61,128 bases of DNA from Flavobacteriales bacterium (GTDB lineage: Bacteria; Bacteroidota; Bacteroidia; Flavobacteriales; BACL11): the NCBI GenBank assembly GCA_002705205.1, contig PAHP01000003.1, forward strand, positions 1-61,128. Reading direction: 5' to 3'. Position 1 is the stretch's first letter; every line of letters begins with the position of its first letter. Below are positions 13,944 through 25,405 of the stretch, piece by piece. The notes beneath the pieces were generated by a model. That model had not been told where the DNA came from and did not search any database. It was given only the letters and a program-made list of their open reading frames with translations. The position numbers and the translations under genes were made by a program.

Positions 13944-15728
13944 ATGAGAAGATTTTTGTTTGTGTTTCTTTGTTTGATTAGCAGCTTTGTTATTTTAGGG
14001 CAATGTTCAATTGATTACACATATTTTCCTTCATCTGCAAACTATGGCCTGGATCCTGACTCACTCCCTGATGGTTATGTTGGACAGTTTTATGATGAAG
14101 ACATGACATTTTTCTTGCCTTTAGATACATTTTCGGGTGGTGTGAATGTTACTTTTGAAGACTTTCATATTACTTCAATTTCATTGCCATTAGGATTAAC
14201 TTGGGAATGTAATAATTCAGCAAATAGTTGTCATTATGACCCTAATGTAAGTCAATATGGATGTGTTAAGCTTTCAGGTGTCGCTTTAATAGCAGGTTAT
14301 TATGATGTTGAGGTTGATTTGGTCGCTACTCATAGTATGTCCCCATTGGTTGGTACCGAAAATATTTCTTTTACATTACCACTGACCATATTGCCTGACA
14401 CCTCTACTTCTTCTAATGCAGGTTTTGCAATGTCAAATCCTACAGGATGTACGCCAATTACTGTAAGCTTTACAAATAATAATACTGGAATGCTGTCTTA
14501 TTTCTGGGATTTTGGTAATGGCAACACTAGTGTTTTGCAGGATCCGGTTGATCAAATATATTCACAGCCTGGAGAATATATTGTTCAATATTCAGCTATT
14601 CAAACAAATCCGTTGTATTTTCTAGAAAGTATAGAGGTTGTGAGTGGTGGGTGTACAGATAATATTTTAATAGGTGATGTTGATTTATTGTATGATATTT
14701 CTACTTCAGGTGGAATCGTGCAATCGGTTAGCGCTAGTAATGCGATAACACAGTCTTTTCCATTAATGATTAATCTTTCTAATCCATTACAATTATCAGG
14801 GCAGGATGTGATAATTGATGTCTGGGATGATGATGGTTGGCCTTTTGGTCTTGAGTATTGTGGAGGGTTGACATTTACTCCTCAGCAACAGGCAGGCACT
14901 TTTTCAGAAAATGGAGGAGGTCTTACTATAAACTATACTGTAATGGAAGTGCCGGCAAGTATGGTTTCTTCAACAGATACAATCTATGTTTATGACTATC
15001 CTTTAAGTCCTAGTTTAGTTTATGACACTTTAAATAATATTATTTATACATCAGTAGATTCTATTGCAATGCAGTGGTATCATTATAATAGCCCAATACC
15101 TGGAGCTACCGATACTTTTATTGAGCCAAACGTTTCTGGTTTATACTCTTTAGTTGTTGTAAATGAATATGGTTGCACAGCTATTTCTTTAGAAGTTTTA
15201 GTTGTAATATGTGATACTTTGTATCAACCACAATTAGATGACAATGGCTCGACTGCTTGGATGCTTGATTCTGCATTGTATTCTAATTTGCAATGGTATA
15301 GCAGTAATGGTATAGTTCCTGGAGCAAATAGTCCGTTTTTCCCAGCTAATCAAAGTGGATATTATTATATAGTGGCTACAGATTCGTTTGGGTGCTCATA
15401 CTCATCTGATGTGATTTTATTAAGTCCTATATCAAGTCTTCCTGAGATGTCATTTCATGGAGTTGTTAAGGTTGGGCCAAACCCTCTGTCTTCAGATAAT
15501 ATTCATCCTTTAACTATATATATAGAGAATACAGAATTTACAGAAGTTACATTATCGTTAACTGATCTTTATGGAAGGCAAGTTATTCAGAGGGTTGTTA
15601 GTCCGCATCTTTTTCCTTATGAATTCTCTAGAGAAGAGATTAGAAACTTGTCAAATGGCCTGTATTATTTGGATATTTTGTTTGATGGGAAGAGAATTAG
15701 AAAGAAGATAGTAAAGATAGGGGGCTAA
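13944..15728 (+). CDS. secreted PKD-domain protein with T9SS type A sorting domain
   Basis: This 594-aa protein starts at the ATG at 13944 with a signal peptide (about residues 1-20, ending ILGQ). The mature part has paired cysteines, a PKD-like domain (about 155-230) with the hallmark SYFWDFGNGNTS, further Ig-like segments, and a C-terminal domain of about 85 residues (VKVGPNPLSSDN onward, ending KKIVKIGG) matching T9SS type A sorting signals. It is therefore expected to cross the outer membrane through the type IX system and be anchored or released. No enzymatic domain is recognised. Its stop overlaps the convergent lipoprotein gene by 4 bases. Confidence 0.85.
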   Translation: MRRFLFVFLCLISSFVILGQCSIDYTYFPSSANYGLDPDSLPDGYVGQFYDEDMTFFLPLDTFSGGVNVTFEDFHITSISLPLGLTWECNNSANSCHYDPNVSQYGCVKLSGVALIAGYYDVEVDLVATHSMSPLVGTENISFTLPLTILPDTSTSSNAGFAMSNPTGCTPITVSFTNNNTGMLSYFWDFGNGNTSVLQDPVDQIYSQPGEYIVQYSAIQTNPLYFLESIEVVSGGCTDNILIGDVDLLYDISTSGGIVQSVSASNAITQSFPLMINLSNPLQLSGQDVIIDVWDDDGWPFGLEYCGGLTFTPQQQAGTFSENGGGLTINYTVMEVPASMVSSTDTIYVYDYPLSPSLVYDTLNNIIYTSVDSIAMQWYHYNSPIPGATDTFIEPNVSGLYSLVVVNEYGCTAISLEVLVVICDTLYQPQLDDNGSTAWMLDSALYSNLQWYSSNGIVPGANSPFFPANQSGYYYIVATDSFGCSYSSDVILLSPISSLPEMSFHGVVKVGPNPLSSDNIHPLTIYIENTEFTEVTLSLTDLYGRQVIQRVVSPHLFPYEFSREEIRNLSNGLYYLDILFDGKRIRKKIVKIGG

Positions 15729-16250: not shown

Positions 16251-19200
16251 ATGTTGAGAAAAACTTATTTGATGGTTGCATTCTTATTAACTGCAACTTT
16301 TGCTTTTGCACAAACAGGAACTTTAAAGGGTGTTATTACTGACGCAATGTCTGGAGAGCCTATTCCTTTTGCTAATATTGTTGCAGAAAAGAATGGAAAC
16401 CAGATTGGAGGTACTACTACAGACTTTGATGGGAATTATACTATTAAGCCTCTTGATCCAGGTAGTTATACGGTGAAAGCGACTTTTGTTGGTTATGGAA
16501 CTGTAGAGGTTACAGGTGTTATAGTTTCAGCTAATAAGATTACACCTCAAGATATTAAGCTGCAAGAAGGTATCGCTATTGGAGAGGTAAAAATTATTGC
16601 TTACAAGAAACCTCTTTTAGATAAAGATAATCTTTCTGGGGAGACTAAAACAGCAGAGGAGATTGTAGCTTTACCTACAAGGAGTGTAGCTTCTGTTGCG
16701 GCAACTACGGCAGGTATTTATCAAAGAGATGAAGGTGATGCTGTTAACGTTAGGGGTTCAAGGGGTAATGCCACTACTTATTATATTGATGGAATTAAGG
16801 TAAGGGGTAATATGGGAGTTCCTACTTCTGGGATTGAGCAGATTACCGTTGTTACTGGAGGGTTACCTGCAAAATATGGTGATGCTACTGGAGGGATTAT
16901 TTCTGTAACAACAAAGGGGCCTTCTAATAAGCTGTTTGGAGGAATAGAATATGAAACTTCTTCTTTATTTGATGATTATAACTATCATTTATTAGGATTT
17001 GCGCTTTCAGGGCCAATTTTAAAGAAAAGAAATACTGATGGAACGAAAGGAAGCTCTCTTATTGGTTATTTTTTGTCAGGAGAATTAAGGAGTGTTGATG
17101 ATAACGATCCATCTGCAATTGGAATGTGGAAAGTAAAAGATGATGTGCTAGCAGATTTAAAAAAGAATCCATTTGTAATAGCTCCTAATGCCTCTGCAGG
17201 TTTTCTAAGTACATCCGAGTTTTTAAGAGAATCTGATTTTGAATTAGTAGATGCAAAGCTAAATGCAAATGAAAAGAGAATGAACATCTCTGGTAAAATA
17301 GATTTTAAACCGTCTAAAAATACCTTTTTATCTATAGGAGGTAACTTTTTTGCTGAAAAGAAGAGAGATTTTTCAAGATGGAGATCAATGTTCTCTTGGC
17401 AAGACAATAGAGAATCTAGTCAGGTAACATATCGTTTGTTTGGTAAGTTAACTCAGAAGTTTGGTTCTGATGAATCAAATGCAGAAGAAAGTGCCTCGTC
17501 AATTAAGAATGCATTCTTTACTATTCAAGGAGATTACACAAATAATAAGTATACTTATGTTGATGCTAATCATCAGTTTGATTATTTTAAATATGGTTAT
17601 GTTGGTAAATTTACAACTACTAAAGCTCCTATTTATAGCAGAGGAGTAGCAGTAGATTCATTGTCAGGAACTATTTATACAGGTCAAATTCTCAATGGTT
17701 GGGCAGATACTTCCTATACATTTGATGAGTGGGCTGATGGGGAGATTAAATATGATTGGAGAAATTCAAACCCTGGTTTAGTTAACTATACTTCGGCATA
17801 TTACGACTTATTTTCTCAATATGGAATGAATTCTTACATGGCACCTATAATGGGTGAATTTGGTGTTGACGCTGCAAATGATGGTGTTATTAGAACTGCT
17901 GCAGATTTACAAGGGCAAGGGTTAAGGAATGGTGATTTACCTACTTCTGTTTATTCTTTATTTGGTAATCATGCATATTTATATAATGGCTCTGCAAAAC
18001 AAGAAAATACCCAAACATCATTTAAGGTGTCTGGTTCAGCCGATGTTCAATCTCATGAGTTTTCATTTGGTTTTGAATATCAGCAAAGAAAAGATTATTA
18101 TTGGGGATTAGGACCAATGGGATTATGGGGGTTAATGAGGCAACAAGCGAATAAGCATATCTTAGAACGTGATTTATCTAATCCTCAGGCTCAGTTTGAT
18201 GCAAATTTGATTTATCAGGATACTGTAAAGTATGATAGACTTTTTATTGCTGATGAGCAATCTGATTTTGACAGAAATTTAAGAGGTGTTTTAGGTTTGG
18301 ATCCAAATGGAACAGATTTTATTGATATTGATTCTTATGATCCTGCAACGTATTCATTAGATTTATTTAGTGCTGATGAATTGTTAAATAATGGGTCTTC
18401 CTTGGCATATTATTATGGGTATGATATTTATGGTAATAAATTAACAACAATGCCTACTCTTAAAAGTTTCTTTGAAGAAGATAGTGAGAGACTAATTGCA
18501 CCATTTACTCCTATATACACAGCAGGTTACATCCAGGATAAATTTGCAATTGAAGACTTAATCTTTAACATTGGTTTAAGAGTAGATAGATATGATGCAA
18601 ATCAGAAAGTATTAAAAGATCAACATTTATTATATAGTGCTTATACTGCAGGTGCTGATTTAGATTTAATGAATGGAACAGATATACCAGTATGGATTGA
18701 AGATGATTATGTAGTATATGTAGATGATGTAGAGAATCCATCAACTATTGTTGGTTATCGTGATAATTCTTCAGATACTTGGTATAATGCTGATGGGCTA
18801 GAGATTTCAGACCCAACATTATTAGCTGATGAGGCTGGAGGAAAGATCGCTCCATATTTAAAAGATGCTCAATCTGCAAAAAAAGGAATTGTTAATGTTG
18901 ATGAAGCATTTGAAGATTATACTCCTGAGATTGTATTTATGCCAAGAATAGCATTTTCTTTTCCTATATCAGATGAAGCTCAATTCTTCGCACATTATGA
19001 TGTTTTAACACAAAGCCCTCCTGGAAGGAATAGATTAGAACCAGTTGATTACTTATTTATGGCAGATAGAGTTGGAGCAACTTTAGATAATCCGGATTTG
19101 AAACCAGTAAAAACAATTGACTATGAGTTAGGTTTTGCCAAGACATTATCTTTGAAATCAGCGTTAAGGATATCAGCTTTTTATAAAGAAATGAGAGATA

Positions 19201-19997
19201 TGATATCAAAAATAAATGTGATTGGAGCATATCCTGCAACGTATTATACGTTTGGGAATATTGATTTTGGAACAGTTAAAGGTCTCGCGATAAATTATGA
19301 CTTAAGAAGAACCAATAATGTCCAGATGACGGCAAATTATACACTTCAATTTGCAGATGGCACTGGTTCAGAGGCAGATGGAGCTGTTAATTTGGTTGAA
19401 ACAGGACAGCCAAATTTAAGGACCGCTATACCATTAGATTTTGACCAAAGACATGCACTCTCTGCATCTGTTGACTATCATTATGGTGAAGGTAAGGATT
19501 ATAATGGTCCTGTATGGTTTGGATTGAAAGTATTTGAGAATGCTGGGGCTAATGTAATGTTTTCTGCAGGTTCTGGTACTCCTTACTCAAAACAATCAAA
19601 TATTACTCAAGAAGCAGCAGATGGAATTAATGATCGATCTACTCTTGATGGAAGTCTAAATGGCTCTCGCTTACCATGGCAATTCCGTATGAATATGAAG
19701 GTTAATAAAGAATTTGAGATTAAATGGAATGATAAGAAGAGCTCACATCTGAATGTGTATGTACAAGTACAAAATTTATTAGATGCAAGAAATATTATAA
19801 GTGTTTACCGAGCTACAGGTAATCCAGATGATGATGGATATTTACTTTCTCCAGCAGCTTCTGATCCACAGTCTGGAGCTATCACTACAAAGAATGACCC
19901 AGATTCATTCCAATATCTTTACTCTTTAGCTGTTAATAATCCTTCACATTATAGCTTACCTAGAATGTGGAGAGCTGGTATAAGTCTTCAATTTTAA
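16251..19997 (+). CDS. large TonB-dependent receptor with carboxypeptidase-like N-terminal domain (Oar-like)
   Basis: The ATG at 16251 gives 1248 residues beginning with a signal peptide (about 1-21, FAFAQ). A CarboxypepD_reg-like beta-sandwich (about 22-100) is followed by a plug with DAVNVRGSRGNATTYYIDGI (about 163) and a very long barrel that ends RMWRAGISLQF, with the terminal Phe of an outer-membrane protein. No SusD partner is present. Instead, 28 bases downstream lies a giant secreted protein and then a PorV-like barrel, suggesting a joint surface complex. An upstream TTG in the same frame (16218) is a less likely start because it precedes the signal peptide. Confidence 0.88.
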   Translation: MLRKTYLMVAFLLTATFAFAQTGTLKGVITDAMSGEPIPFANIVAEKNGNQIGGTTTDFDGNYTIKPLDPGSYTVKATFVGYGTVEVTGVIVSANKITPQDIKLQEGIAIGEVKIIAYKKPLLDKDNLSGETKTAEEIVALPTRSVASVAATTAGIYQRDEGDAVNVRGSRGNATTYYIDGIKVRGNMGVPTSGIEQITVVTGGLPAKYGDATGGIISVTTKGPSNKLFGGIEYETSSLFDDYNYHLLGFALSGPILKKRNTDGTKGSSLIGYFLSGELRSVDDNDPSAIGMWKVKDDVLADLKKNPFVIAPNASAGFLSTSEFLRESDFELVDAKLNANEKRMNISGKIDFKPSKNTFLSIGGNFFAEKKRDFSRWRSMFSWQDNRESSQVTYRLFGKLTQKFGSDESNAEESASSIKNAFFTIQGDYTNNKYTYVDANHQFDYFKYGYVGKFTTTKAPIYSRGVAVDSLSGTIYTGQILNGWADTSYTFDEWADGEIKYDWRNSNPGLVNYTSAYYDLFSQYGMNSYMAPIMGEFGVDAANDGVIRTAADLQGQGLRNGDLPTSVYSLFGNHAYLYNGSAKQENTQTSFKVSGSADVQSHEFSFGFEYQQRKDYYWGLGPMGLWGLMRQQANKHILERDLSNPQAQFDANLIYQDTVKYDRLFIADEQSDFDRNLRGVLGLDPNGTDFIDIDSYDPATYSLDLFSADELLNNGSSLAYYYGYDIYGNKLTTMPTLKSFFEEDSERLIAPFTPIYTAGYIQDKFAIEDLIFNIGLRVDRYDANQKVLKDQHLLYSAYTAGADLDLMNGTDIPVWIEDDYVVYVDDVENPSTIVGYRDNSSDTWYNADGLEISDPTLLADEAGGKIAPYLKDAQSAKKGIVNVDEAFEDYTPEIVFMPRIAFSFPISDEAQFFAHYDVLTQSPPGRNRLEPVDYLFMADRVGATLDNPDLKPVKTIDYELGFAKTLSLKSALRISAFYKEMRDMISKINVIGAYPATYYTFGNIDFGTVKGLAINYDLRRTNNVQMTANYTLQFADGTGSEADGAVNLVETGQPNLRTAIPLDFDQRHALSASVDYHYGEGKDYNGPVWFGLKVFENAGANVMFSAGSGTPYSKQSNITQEAADGINDRSTLDGSLNGSRLPWQFRMNMKVNKEFEIKWNDKKSSHLNVYVQVQNLLDARNIISVYRATGNPDDDGYLLSPAASDPQSGAITTKNDPDSFQYLYSLAVNNPSHYSLPRMWRAGISLQF

Positions 19998-20025
19998 TTA
20001 AAGAACAGAAAAAAAATAGTCTTTT

Positions 20026-23000
20026 ATGAATAATAAAGCAAAACAAATAGTAACATTATCATTCGCTTTCTTTTCGATTGCAGTGATGGCAAAGGAAAAT
20101 GTCATTAATCCAAATGCTACATCTACAGTTAACACTAAGATTGCTGCAGGGTGTAATCCTGCCACATCACAGACCGACCTAGATATAAATAATGTAAGAA
20201 CTACAATTATGGCCGGCGGTGATATGTGGTGGAATCTAGATGATGCAAGGTATGAGATCCCAAAGAATGGGAACAAGCACTCAATGTTTGCAGGAGCTCT
20301 TTGGATTGGGGGTGTTGATGATGGAGGTCAGTTAAAAGTTGCTGCAATGACATACCGACAAAGTGGTAATGATTTTTGGCCTGGACCGTTAAACACTAGT
20401 AATGCTACAATATCATCTGAGGAATGTAATAAGTGGGATAAACACTATAAGTTACTTCGCTCTGATGTTGAAGAATATGTTGCTAAGTTTGGGATTGATG
20501 GTTCTTATGTAATCCCGTCCTCAATATTAGAATGGCCAGCTCATGGTGACGCTGCATTAGGTCAAGATGAATTTTTAGCTCCTTTCTTTGATCTAAATCA
20601 GAATGGCCTGTACGAGCCTTATGATGGGGATTACCCTGATTATAACATTACAGGTAATAATAAGCAAGCTAGGCTATTTGGAGATCAAACTTTATTCTGG
20701 ATTTTTAATGATAAAGGAAATATTCATACAGAAACTGAAGCAGAGCCTTTAGGTTTGGAGATCCATGCTCAAGCATTTGGTTTCACTGCTGATAATGAAT
20801 TAAATGACATGACTTTTTATAATTATAAGATATTTAATAGAGCGACACTACCATTAAATGATGTTTATTTTGGACAATGGGTAGATCCTGACTTGGGATA
20901 TTATCTTGATGACTATGTAGGATGTGATGTAGGCTTAGGTTTGGGATTCTGTTATAATGGTGATGCTGAGGATGAAGGTAGTGCTGGTTATGGTTTTAAT
21001 CCACCAGCTATTGGTGTTGATTTCTTTGAGGGACCAATTGCTGATCCAGATGATGATATAGATAATGATAGAGATGGAGAAGTTGATGAGCCTGGAGAGC
21101 AAATCATTATGTCTAAATTTGTGTATTATAATAATGATTTTACCGTAACAGGAAATCCTGAGAGTGGAACAGATATTTATAATTATTTACAGGGTATTTG
21201 GAAAGATAATATTCCAATGACTTATGGAGGAGATGGACATGGAGGAGGAGCTGGAAGCACCACAAGTCCTTGCAATTTTATGTTTCCTGGAACTTCAGAT
21301 ACTGATCCTAATGTTCCTCAGACTGAATGGACTGAGGTAACTGCTGGTAATGTTCCTGCAGATAGAAGATTTTTACAATCTGCGGGTCCCTTTACTCTTG
21401 AGCCAGGAGCAGTTAATACAATTACTACTGGTGTTGTTTGGGCACGAGCTGTTTCTGGAGGATCTTCAGCTTCAGTAGCTTTACTTAAAGTATATGACAG
21501 AACAGCTCAAGCATTATTTAATAATAATTTTGATATTATTAATGGGCCTGATGCGCCTGATCTTAATATTAGAGAATTAGATAAGGAATTAATCATTACG
21601 TTGTCAAATAGTGAAACTTCAAATAACCTTAATGAAACATATTTTGAGAAAGATCCATATATTACTAATCCTATTAATATCCCTGATAATGTAAATTATG
21701 AATTTCAAGGTTATTTAGTGTATCAATTAAAGGATTTAACAGTTTCTGTTACTGATTTAGATAATCCTGATAAGGCTAGATTAATTTATAGGAGTGATAT
21801 AAAAGATGGAGTTTCAGAGATTGTTAATCATTATAAAGATCCATCACTTGGGGAGGCAGGTGTTTGGTTCCCAGTTGAAGAGATTTCAGGCGAATTAAGT
21901 GATGGAGTTTCAGGTTCAGTTGATGAAGGGGTCGAATATTCTTTCCAGGTATTAGATGATAAATTTGCAGTAGGTAACACAAGACTGGTAAATCATAAGA
22001 CTTATTATTTTATGTCTTTAGCATATGCCCATAATAGTGCTGAAATTAATATAGACCCATATAACGGAGCAGATTCTACTTATGATGGTAGAAATAGACC
22101 ATACCTTCAAGGGAGAAGAAATATAGAAGTATATTCTGCTATACCTCATTTTATTGAGCCGGAGAATGGAGGGACTACTTTACACTCTTCGTATGGTGAT
22201 GGGTTGCCACTTACAAGATTAGAAGGTCAAGGTAATGGAGGAATGGCTCTTGAATTAACAGATAAAACAATAAATGAGATATTAACTTCAAATGATCACA
22301 GAAGTTTATATCCAGAGTATAAACAAGGAATGGGGCCAATTGCTATTACAGTTATTGATCCAGTAAGAATTCCTCAAGGTGATTTCACGTTTAAATTAAT
22401 AGATCCAATTTTTAGTGCAAGCTCTATTATTTCATATGGTGGTTGGCAGTTGATTAACAATACGAATGGTAAGGTGCAAGCATCTGCTAGTCAAGATATT
22501 TCGTTTGGATCTGAGCAATATATTGAGCAATTAGGGTTAAGCTTTAAGCTTAATCAGGCTCAAAATCCTGGAAGTGATCCTGATAATATTCAAAATAATG
22601 GATTAATATCTGGGACTATTGAATTTGAGAATATGAATGATAAATGGTTAAGTGGTGTTGCAGATAGAGATGATGATAATCCATTCTTTAGTGTTTGGGG
22701 GTTCAATTGGATTAGAGCAGGGTCAGTTGAATCTACTACTGAAAACCCTGTAGGGATTAATCAGATTGATTATAATACTTCTGATGATCCTAATGGATCC
22801 TTTGAGGGGGCTGTTATTGAAACAAATATAGGTTTTGGTGGTCAATTTGAATGGACAGGAGGAACTTGGGCTCCATACCGTTTTGCTTCTAATTTTAATG
22901 ATGGTCCGGGTATTAGTACTTCAATTACTAATCTGGCTAAACTTTCAAATTTAAATTCTGTTGATATTGTTATCACTGATGATACATCAAAATGGAGTAG

Positions 23001-24252
23001 AGTTTGTATTGTTGAGGCTCAAGATGATGTGGCGTTATCAGAGGGAGGGCAAATTAAAATGGGATTAAGAAAGTCTCTTTCAGTTGGTAAAGATGGTGAG
23101 CCAGATGGCGCAGTAGATTCTAATGGAGTAGCAATATACGGATTAGGATGGTTCCCTGGTTATGCTATTGATATTGAGACAGGTGAAAGATTAAATATTA
23201 TATTTTCTGAGGATTCATGGCAAACTTCTGAGAATGGGAATGATATGCTATGGAATCCAACAGGTAAGTTAGTTACAGATGAATTTCCTTTCTATGACTC
23301 TGATAATAATGAGTTTTCAGGAGGTAATTATTTATTAGGAGGAAAGCACTTTATCTATGTTGTTAAAGGTGAATCTTGGGTAAAAGGAACTAATGATTAT
23401 ATTAATAATATTTCTGATTGTGATGATTCTCCTAATTATGATGAATCAGCTTGGATTTATTCAAGACTATTAAATGATAATACTGGTACAGGTAAATTTT
23501 ATGTGTTTAGAAATGTTACGTGGGTTGGAGCACCTTTATTAGCTCCAGGAAGAGATCTGAACTTTTCTAATGAAGCTAAAATTAAATTAAGAGTAACTAA
23601 ACCATATAATTCATATGAAACGGTTATCTCAGATAAGTTTTTTGATAAAAATATGGATTTAATATTAGGAGAGACTTATGTAGTCGCTTATGAAAATCTA
23701 CCAACTACTTGGGGTGGTAAAACAGTTACCTATAACGGCTTTGATTACGAACCAGGGGAATCATTTGTTACCGTAGATTCGATAGTGACCTTTACGGGTT
23801 CTTCAAAAGCTAGAGTAATTCAAGCAAGTGCTATTAATAGTTTTAACCCAACATATAGCTTTAATACAGATGAAATTACTGCTCAGAAAGGCGTGTTAAG
23901 TGTAGCAAAAGATGCAATGGAAACAATAAAAGTTGTCCCTAATCCTTATTATGGATATTCATCTTATGAGAAGAATCAGTTAGATAATAGAGTGAAAATT
24001 ACAAATCTTCCGAGGCGAGCAACTATCTCAATCTTTACGATAGGAGGTACTTTAGTTCGAAAACTTAATAAAGATGATGGGATGACCTCTATTGATTGGG
24101 ATCTCAAGAATAATTTCGGAATTCCAATTGCTAGCGGATTGTATGTTATACATGTAAGAGGGTTGTTCTATGAGAATGGTAATCCTGTAGAGAAAGATAA
24201 AGTAATAAAATGGTTTGGTTCATTACGACCAATTGACTTAGATACTTTCTAA
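20026..24252 (+). CDS. giant secreted protein of unknown function with T9SS-like C-terminal domain
   Basis: This 1408-aa protein has a signal peptide (about residues 1-22, ending AVMA) and no recognisable enzyme domain. Near residue 343 a run of Asp/Asn (DPDDDIDNDRDGEVDEPGE) resembles a calcium-binding thrombospondin type 3 or EF-like loop. The last 90 or so residues (VVPNPYYGYSSYEKN, then ATISIFTIGGTLVRKL and ASGLYVIHVRG) form a FlgD-like/T9SS sorting-type domain. It lies 28 bases after the TonB receptor and 37 before the PorV-like gene on the same strand. I infer a cell-surface protein exported by the type IX system and working with these neighbours. Confidence 0.8.
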   Translation: MNNKAKQIVTLSFAFFSIAVMAKENVINPNATSTVNTKIAAGCNPATSQTDLDINNVRTTIMAGGDMWWNLDDARYEIPKNGNKHSMFAGALWIGGVDDGGQLKVAAMTYRQSGNDFWPGPLNTSNATISSEECNKWDKHYKLLRSDVEEYVAKFGIDGSYVIPSSILEWPAHGDAALGQDEFLAPFFDLNQNGLYEPYDGDYPDYNITGNNKQARLFGDQTLFWIFNDKGNIHTETEAEPLGLEIHAQAFGFTADNELNDMTFYNYKIFNRATLPLNDVYFGQWVDPDLGYYLDDYVGCDVGLGLGFCYNGDAEDEGSAGYGFNPPAIGVDFFEGPIADPDDDIDNDRDGEVDEPGEQIIMSKFVYYNNDFTVTGNPESGTDIYNYLQGIWKDNIPMTYGGDGHGGGAGSTTSPCNFMFPGTSDTDPNVPQTEWTEVTAGNVPADRRFLQSAGPFTLEPGAVNTITTGVVWARAVSGGSSASVALLKVYDRTAQALFNNNFDIINGPDAPDLNIRELDKELIITLSNSETSNNLNETYFEKDPYITNPINIPDNVNYEFQGYLVYQLKDLTVSVTDLDNPDKARLIYRSDIKDGVSEIVNHYKDPSLGEAGVWFPVEEISGELSDGVSGSVDEGVEYSFQVLDDKFAVGNTRLVNHKTYYFMSLAYAHNSAEINIDPYNGADSTYDGRNRPYLQGRRNIEVYSAIPHFIEPENGGTTLHSSYGDGLPLTRLEGQGNGGMALELTDKTINEILTSNDHRSLYPEYKQGMGPIAITVIDPVRIPQGDFTFKLIDPIFSASSIISYGGWQLINNTNGKVQASASQDISFGSEQYIEQLGLSFKLNQAQNPGSDPDNIQNNGLISGTIEFENMNDKWLSGVADRDDDNPFFSVWGFNWIRAGSVESTTENPVGINQIDYNTSDDPNGSFEGAVIETNIGFGGQFEWTGGTWAPYRFASNFNDGPGISTSITNLAKLSNLNSVDIVITDDTSKWSRVCIVEAQDDVALSEGGQIKMGLRKSLSVGKDGEPDGAVDSNGVAIYGLGWFPGYAIDIETGERLNIIFSEDSWQTSENGNDMLWNPTGKLVTDEFPFYDSDNNEFSGGNYLLGGKHFIYVVKGESWVKGTNDYINNISDCDDSPNYDESAWIYSRLLNDNTGTGKFYVFRNVTWVGAPLLAPGRDLNFSNEAKIKLRVTKPYNSYETVISDKFFDKNMDLILGETYVVAYENLPTTWGGKTVTYNGFDYEPGESFVTVDSIVTFTGSSKARVIQASAINSFNPTYSFNTDEITAQKGVLSVAKDAMETIKVVPNPYYGYSSYEKNQLDNRVKITNLPRRATISIFTIGGTLVRKLNKDDGMTSIDWDLKNNFGIPIASGLYVIHVRGLFYENGNPVEKDKVIKWFGSLRPIDLDTF

Positions 24253-24289
24253 TTTAAATTAATAATAGAAGATAATAAATATTATACAT

Positions 24290-25360
24290 ATGAAACAAAT
24301 TAATAACTGGGTAAAAGCTACAGCAATGATTACGCTGTTACTATTTCCTTTTAGTCAAAATATTGCAGGTAATCCTCAAAGAGCTGGGCAAGCAGGAGCT
24401 TCTGAATTATTGATTAATCCATGGGCTAGATCCTCAGGCTGGGGAGATGCGAATGTTGCAGGGATTAGAGGTTTGGAAGGGATTTATTCAAATGTCGCAG
24501 GTCTTGCTTTTACAGAAAAAACAGAATTAGTTTTCTCTACTGCTCAATGGCTAAAGCTTGGAGATGAATCAGTAAGTAATATTAGTTCATTTGGATTTTC
24601 TCAGAAAACTGGAGAATCAGGAGCAATAGGATTCTCAGTCATGAGTATGAGTTTCGGTGAGATTGAGGTTACTACTGTGGATCAGCCAGAAGGAGGTATT
24701 GGAACCTATTCTCCTAGCCTTATGAATATGAGCCTTGCTTACTCAAGGATTTTTTCTAATAGTATATATGGTGGGGTTACTGTAAAGATGATCTCAGAAC
24801 AGATATCAAATGTTGGGGCTAATGGCCTTGCTTTAGATGCAGGTATCCAATATGTTACAGGTAAGAAGGATAATATGAAATTTGGGATTTCATTAAAGAA
24901 TGTAGGACCTAGAATGAGTTTTAGTGGTGACGGACTTTCTTTTAGAGGAATTATTCCATCAGGAGATAATGATGATTATAAAATGACTGTCGAGCAAAGA
25001 TCATCTGAGCTTGAATTACCTGCATTATTAAATATAGGAATAGCTTATGATGTCAATATAATGAGACATAGAATAACTGGAGCAAGTACTTTTACTTCTA
25101 ATTCTTTTCAGAAAGATCAATATAGACTTGGAGGGGAGTACTCTTATAGAGAAATGTTTATGCTACGTTTAGGCTATACTTATGAGGAAGGGATAAGAAC
25201 TCCAAGCACTAGAACTAATGTTCTGAGAGGTCCTTCAGGAGGGTTTACGGTTGAATTGCCAATGGGATCTAATGGATCTACTTTTGGTTTAGATTATTCT
25301 TACAGGCACACAGATCCTTTCCAAGGTTCTCATGCTATTGGAGCTAGAATTAATTTATAA
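24290..25360 (+). CDS. PorV/PorQ-like outer-membrane barrel protein
   Basis: This 356-aa protein has a signal peptide (about residues 1-26) and the N-terminal pattern of the PorV/PorQ (UPF0164-like) family: GASELLINPWARSSGWGDANVAGIRGLEGIYSN-type segment where a conserved short helix precedes the first strands, then regular Gly-rich beta strands to the C-terminus (GARINL). PorV shuttles T9SS cargo from the SprA translocon to the surface attachment machinery. This copy is encoded right behind a giant T9SS-type cargo, so it may be a dedicated carrier paralogue rather than the housekeeping PorV. Confidence 0.78.
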   Translation: MKQINNWVKATAMITLLLFPFSQNIAGNPQRAGQAGASELLINPWARSSGWGDANVAGIRGLEGIYSNVAGLAFTEKTELVFSTAQWLKLGDESVSNISSFGFSQKTGESGAIGFSVMSMSFGEIEVTTVDQPEGGIGTYSPSLMNMSLAYSRIFSNSIYGGVTVKMISEQISNVGANGLALDAGIQYVTGKKDNMKFGISLKNVGPRMSFSGDGLSFRGIIPSGDNDDYKMTVEQRSSELELPALLNIGIAYDVNIMRHRITGASTFTSNSFQKDQYRLGGEYSYREMFMLRLGYTYEEGIRTPSTRTNVLRGPSGGFTVELPMGSNGSTFGLDYSYRHTDPFQGSHAIGARINL

Positions 25361-25388: not shown

Positions 25389-25405
25389 AAGGAAGTTTCT
25401 TCCTT
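25389..25405 (+). terminator. short hairpin after the PorV-like gene
   Basis: AAGGAAG-TTT-CTTCCTT forms a perfect 7-bp stem with a 3-base loop, 29 bases after the PorV-like stop. The T-tract is poor (TTATCTT), so termination may be weak. TATCTTCG at 25406-25413, a near match to TAnnTTTG, could be the greA promoter box. Confidence 0.4.

Follow-up and report, generated by a model that had tools for sequence, protein, structure and literature searches.

A TonB transporter, probable T9SS cargo and PorV-family barrel encoded as a conserved three-gene unit in Bacteroidota

Gene content of the locus

The window analysed here, a stretch of 61,128 nucleotides from a member of the Flavobacteriales, contains three open reading frames that follow one another on the same strand with intergenic gaps of 28 and 37 bases. 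The initial annotation had read them as a receptor, a giant secreted cargo and a barrel, and we found the three genes arranged as it described. The features of the trio are as follows.

16251..19997, + strand: TonB-dependent transporter (TBDT), 1248 aa, stop within the coordinates; its position is common to all long-enough relatives
16320..16565, + strand: transporter N-terminal carboxypeptidase-regulatory-like domain, residues 24-105 (PF13620, 69.6 bits, over the cut-off)
16644..16898, + strand: transporter TonB plug domain, residues 132-216 (PF07715, 42.8 bits, over the cut-off)
20026..24252, + strand: probable T9SS cargo of a type I trio, 1408 aa
20143..21555, + strand: conserved N-terminal domain of the cargo, approximately residues 40-510, which occurs also in stand-alone type A-ended T9SS cargos
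23920..24252, + strand: cargo C-terminal domain of the PorZ/PorU-like kind, approximately residues 1299-1408
24211..24249, + strand: 13-residue cargo tail after the invariant strand lysine K1395, of a length fixed in type I trios
24290..25360, + strand: PorV/PorQ-family outer-membrane barrel, 356 aa, proposed dedicated shuttle or anchor
25389..25405, + strand: possible intrinsic terminator behind the trio, weak, in a region where the count of such sites equals that in shuffles

The N-terminus of the 1408-aa cargo is signal-like. No Pfam family scored over its cut-off in the window cargo, in agreement with the earlier view that it holds no known domain, and FlgD_ig and TIGR04183 gave weak matches at the C-terminus. 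A PKD protein with a T9SS-like tail lies between ahcY and the trio (13947-15725, + strand) and is kept in several close relatives.

Conservation of the trio across Bacteroidota

To examine conserved adjacency in many Bacteroidota, the follow-up that had been suggested for this locus, loci were picked by cargo score and their neighbours ignored. The 36 loci from marine Flavobacteriales share the order ahcY, transporter, cargo, barrel, greA and HIT as far as each contig reaches, and 80 complete trios read across the phylum retain the order TBDT-cargo-barrel. Among cargos with flanking room on both sides whose C-terminal end the family profile recognizes, 78 of 90 had both neighbours; the exceptions are mostly tandem extra cargos or proteins with another kind of end. 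The gap between transporter and cargo is 3-40 bases in 25 relatives, and that between cargo and barrel is 24-38 bases in 26 relatives. Chance adjacency was rejected, as every sufficiently long locus among the 36 relatives and the 80 trios read elsewhere in Bacteroidota keep the order. Inherited synteny among genes that form no functional complex could draw on greA and HIT, which are kept in Bacteroidia, and on ahcY, which is kept in the window's relatives, but the trio persists in surroundings that are otherwise entirely different and its genes duplicate together, and we regard this explanation as extremely unlikely.

Relatives of the cargo were detected with its profile in 190 of the 396 genomes that represent the phylum; the weakest of these matches involve nothing beyond the C-terminal domain. 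The window's family has the cargo as a core gene: it is present in 46 of 52 genomes, including all 15 near-complete ones, mostly as a single copy in genomes of about 1-2 Mb. Elsewhere there may be up to seven or more trio copies per genome. About 45 genomes from other families of the window's order gave no convincing cargo match, which suggests that the families of the T9SS model species are without the trio. Rhodothermus marinus DSM 4252 has its trio (RMAR_RS14120, RMAR_RS14115 and RMAR_RS14110) on plasmid pRMAR01, with the cargo listed as 'hypothetical protein', and a search of plasmid records with the cargo and the barrel returned one trio, that of R. marinus.

Three loci (L127, L128 and L156) hold extra trio-type cargos, in tandem behind a trio or without one. 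These lack a transporter and barrel of their own and perhaps share one barrel and transporter. A GWxTD-domain protein recurs just after the barrel of type I trios (for example L136:12173-13540, L145:11965-13326 and L119:6218-7573); the assignment is Pfam-confirmed for 3, and a cluster of similar-sized downstream proteins is found in 12 genomes.

The cargo end resembles PorZ and PorU

SprA was found in all 190 cargo-positive genomes as compared with 114 of 206 others, a count that ignores relatedness. This co-occurrence links the cargo to the T9SS, by which it is probably exported. The last ~110 residues of the relatives' cargos match the PorZ C-terminus in 23 of 26 members and PorU in 9 of 26. 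The match to PorZ is confined to the final ~100 positions (23-44 bits in relatives, where the full PorZ equivalog requires 260). The type A model TIGR04183 is matched weakly, and the window cargo falls under its cut-off (13.6 of 23 bits). The initial annotation had called the C-terminus FlgD/T9SS-like; the weak matches bear this out, but the type A cut-off is missed and PorZ and PorU are closer. A lysine predicted in the last strand, K1395, is invariant in 26 diverse members.

The cargo was modelled by AlphaFold in two halves. The N-terminal half (pLDDT 31) was discarded as unusable, and the C-terminal half (pLDDT 55) was used for the end domain only. Fold matches of the latter model are to the C-terminal domains of PorZ, PorU and NucA, with PorZ and PorU the two best folds among 350,542 chains; overall TM-scores are low because the end domain alone matches. 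PorU and PorZ are T9SS proteins with an uncleaved C-terminal domain (PMC11285876), and each binds one PorV-family barrel (PMC5562754).

Two other assignments of the cargo were rejected. No type B model was matched in the window cargo at E 0.1, CHU_C included, and PF13585 was matched weakly in 1 of 26 relatives, which argues against a type B cargo. As a plain type A cargo it misses the cut-off, and PorZ is matched instead.

The barrel belongs to the PorV/PorQ family

The window barrel scores 144.2 bits against the PorV/PorQ family model NF033709 (cut-off 90), which is matched by all 24 trio barrels scanned. It lies below both equivalogs, with 73.1 of 250 bits for PorV (NF033710) and 66.9 of 220 bits for PorQ (NF033711); the genome's own PorV is a separate gene at C16 that scores 478.5 bits against NF033710. 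The only PDB sequence match of the barrel is PorV 6h3i (E 1.3e-8), and a FadL transporter was rejected on this ground. A grouping with FadL-like proteins had been named as an outcome that would speak against the initial annotation; the barrel instead groups with PorV, and the other such outcome, homologues of the three genes lying apart in other genomes, was not borne out either. The NCBIfam family PorV2 (NF052325), a putative type IX sorting barrel, is likewise a PorV-family paralogue and is matched weakly by trio barrels, but the window barrel is far under its cut-off (33 of 325 bits).

A quick maximum-likelihood inference was run on 79 trio barrels and 13 housekeeping PorV proteins (a careful search did not finish). 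In the resulting tree, all 79 trio barrels fall on one side of a branch with support 98 and the 13 housekeeping PorV across it. Within the trio barrels, type I forms a clade with support 100 and type II a group with support 92, and this division coincides with the two types of cargo end. L192, L194 and L195 carry an additional PorV-family clade that lies outside both PorV and the trio barrels.

Two types of trio and cognate pairing

In type I cargos 13 residues follow the conserved lysine in all 54 parsed of 56, mostly with a final F or Y; the window cargo, which is of this type, terminates in RPIDLDTF. In type II cargos the chain stops directly at I/L/V-I-K, and the passengers differ from those of type I. 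The type I N-terminal domain is found also in stand-alone proteins. Among 14 of these that lacked the family end, all with room on both sides, none had both neighbours, and the three that were scanned carry standard type A ends (TIGR04183, 29.8-49.1 bits). The neighbours therefore track the C-terminal end and not the passenger.

These data bear on the possibility of an ordinary type A cargo that is served by the housekeeping PorV, cleaved by PorU and anchored by glycolipid, with the extra barrel having another job. The C-terminal domain carries a conserved lysine and appears, in the model of the C-terminal half, to fold like a type A domain, TIGR04183 is matched weakly, and all type A domains are held to be served by PorV (PMC12618676). 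Against this, the window cargo misses the type A cut-off where PorZ is matched, the type I tail is fixed at 13 residues and the barrel clade corresponds exactly to the type of cargo end. We consider an ordinary type A substrate quite improbable.

We also compared best matches between genomes, using five genomes with 4-7 trios each and ignoring relatedness. The best matches of barrel and cargo end fell into one trio in 57% of cases, those of barrel and cargo body in 68% and those of barrel and transporter in 72%; for transporter and cargo body the figure was 74%, and the shuffled expectation is about 17%. Same-trio matches so far above the shuffled expectation indicate that the three genes duplicate and diverge as a unit. 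The proposal of a dedicated PorV paralogue is well supported by this co-segregation of duplicated trios together with the agreement between barrel clade and cargo-end type, and at the sequence level the cargo and its own barrel are thus a well-supported candidate for a dedicated pair.

A second protein of ~490-508 aa with the cargo N-terminal domain, without an adjoining transporter or barrel, is encoded on contig C8 of the window's own genome and at L125:8991-10460. Tandem arrays of up to ~12 proteins of ~560-1000 aa that share this domain occur in two other genomes (G255, contigs C96 and C200; G116, contig C58, L154). The array members that were read (L154, L144) carry type A signals of the standard kind at their ends.

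Genomic context and the distribution of SusD

Glycoside hydrolase or carbohydrate-binding domains (GH16, GH3, GH94, GH2, GH5, CBM9 or CBM20/48) were found in immediate same-strand neighbours of 10 of 30 type II trios tested and in 0 of 10 neighbours of type I trios, and T9SS-tailed proteins in 15 of 30 and 2 of 10, respectively; the numbers in the GH/CBM comparison are small and the neighbours were picked partly by length. Peptidoglycan amidases adjoin other trios, that of R. marinus included. The window trio sits among housekeeping genes and not glycan genes.

SusD or the trio cargo is present in 303 of 304 SprA-positive genomes: 113 carry SusD without the cargo, 100 the cargo without SusD, 90 carry both and 1 carries neither. 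This comparison ignores phylogeny, with SusD abundant in Bacteroidia and the trio chiefly elsewhere. SusD_RagB was found neither in the window's genome (73% complete) nor in any of 15 near-complete relatives. The window transporter did not match the SusC-family model TIGR04056 at E 0.1; the transporters of 18 of 23 relatives matched it at E 0.001, in a table that does not give cut-off status. The near-complementary distribution of SusD and cargo is suggestive and would fit a trio doing the work of SusCD. The idea that the trio stands in place of SusC/SusD thus gains indirect support from this distribution and from the PUL-like neighbours of type II trios, but 90 genomes hold both.

The same context has to be weighed for two other readings of the transporter. 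The cargo and barrel could be a dedicated anchored surface protein, such as an adhesin or coat, with the transporter co-expressed and independent. The pair resembles SprB-SprF and PorZ-PorQ, neither of which needs a TBDT (PMC9143113, PMC5562754), some trios are followed by tandem arrays of extra cargos and the window's neighbours give no uptake clue. However, practically all trios have the transporter upstream, its co-segregation with cargo and barrel is as strong as that between those two, and glycan enzymes adjoin type II trios. An independent transporter is therefore rather unlikely in our view. Alternatively, the transporter could be a sensor or an assembly or export partner of the cargo, acting in TonB-driven release or signalling and not as an importer. 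Type I trios, which lack a substrate clue, would allow this. The type II context points instead to nutrient uptake, the transporter N-terminal domain is plain carboxypeptidase-like and no ECF sigma/anti-sigma pair was seen among the neighbours scanned, and we give a sensor or export role very little weight.

A model for the trio and its relation to known systems

The explanation that we favor, and hold to be probable, is that the three genes encode a T9SS cargo, its cognate shuttle and a TonB transporter, which together form one assembly that works like SusCD. The cargo would leave first by Sec and next by way of SprA, the T9SS channel. The co-encoded barrel, and not the housekeeping PorV, would recognize the cargo's PorZ/PorU-like C-terminal domain, bring the cargo to the outside and then serve as its membrane anchor while the domain stays uncleaved, in the manner of PorQ with PorZ and SprF with SprB. 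Anchored on or beside the TonB transporter, the cargo may serve it as SusD serves SusC, in substrate capture or as a lid. Type I trios in the window's family are the single-copy core form, and type II trios present other passengers, often in loci for glycan use. The export and barrel-holding half of this mechanism is well supported by the sequence comparisons; we infer the recognition and retention of the cargo domain by the barrel, as well as the uptake role, the substrate and the idea, put forward in the initial annotation, that the cargo docks on or plugs the transporter. Counted against the model are the uncorrected phylogeny, the 90 genomes with both SusD and cargo, the tandem cargos and the housekeeping context. 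On a broader scale, we see about equal grounds for and against a phylum-wide, SusD-independent class of TonB uptake systems whose partner is a T9SS cargo on its own PorV-family barrel, and which would also be a third class of T9SS cargo and shuttle.

The closest known arrangements are PorZ-PorQ and PorU-PorV of the Porphyromonas gingivalis attachment complex, in which a retained C-terminal domain is bound one-to-one by a PorV-family barrel (PMC5562754, PMC11285876). The trio cargo end is like PorZ and PorU in both sequence and fold matches. The trio differs in that its barrel is outside the PorV and PorQ cut-offs, its passenger is unrelated, a TonB transporter belongs to the unit and seven or more copies are possible. 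SprB-SprF of Flavobacterium johnsoniae, a type B cargo with a PorP/SprF barrel, is similar in that the gene next to the cargo encodes a FadL-superfamily shuttle dedicated to the secretion and anchoring of that cargo (PMC12618676, PMC9143113). In the trio, by contrast, the barrel is of the PorV family, the cargo end is PorZ/type A-like and not type B, and a TonB transporter is added. SusC-SusD importers also encode a TonB transporter with a large surface partner, and type II trios lie in PUL-like loci, but the partner in the trio would be a T9SS cargo on a barrel and not a SusD-family lipoprotein.

We found no prior description of the trio in the open-access literature searched (subscription papers and preprints were outside its scope), consistent with the earlier remark that no described role was known for the arrangement. 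Work on T9SS substrates rests on type A/PorV and type B/SprF-like shuttles (PMC12618676). If the model holds, the existence of a third class, PorZ-like and with numerous cognate PorV paralogues, would alter how T9SS cargos are counted and sorted, PorV-family expansions in non-model Bacteroidota would gain meaning, and it would be explained how SusD-less lineages build TonB-linked surface complexes. Among the species that carry the trio, Rhodothermus marinus is a cultured one.
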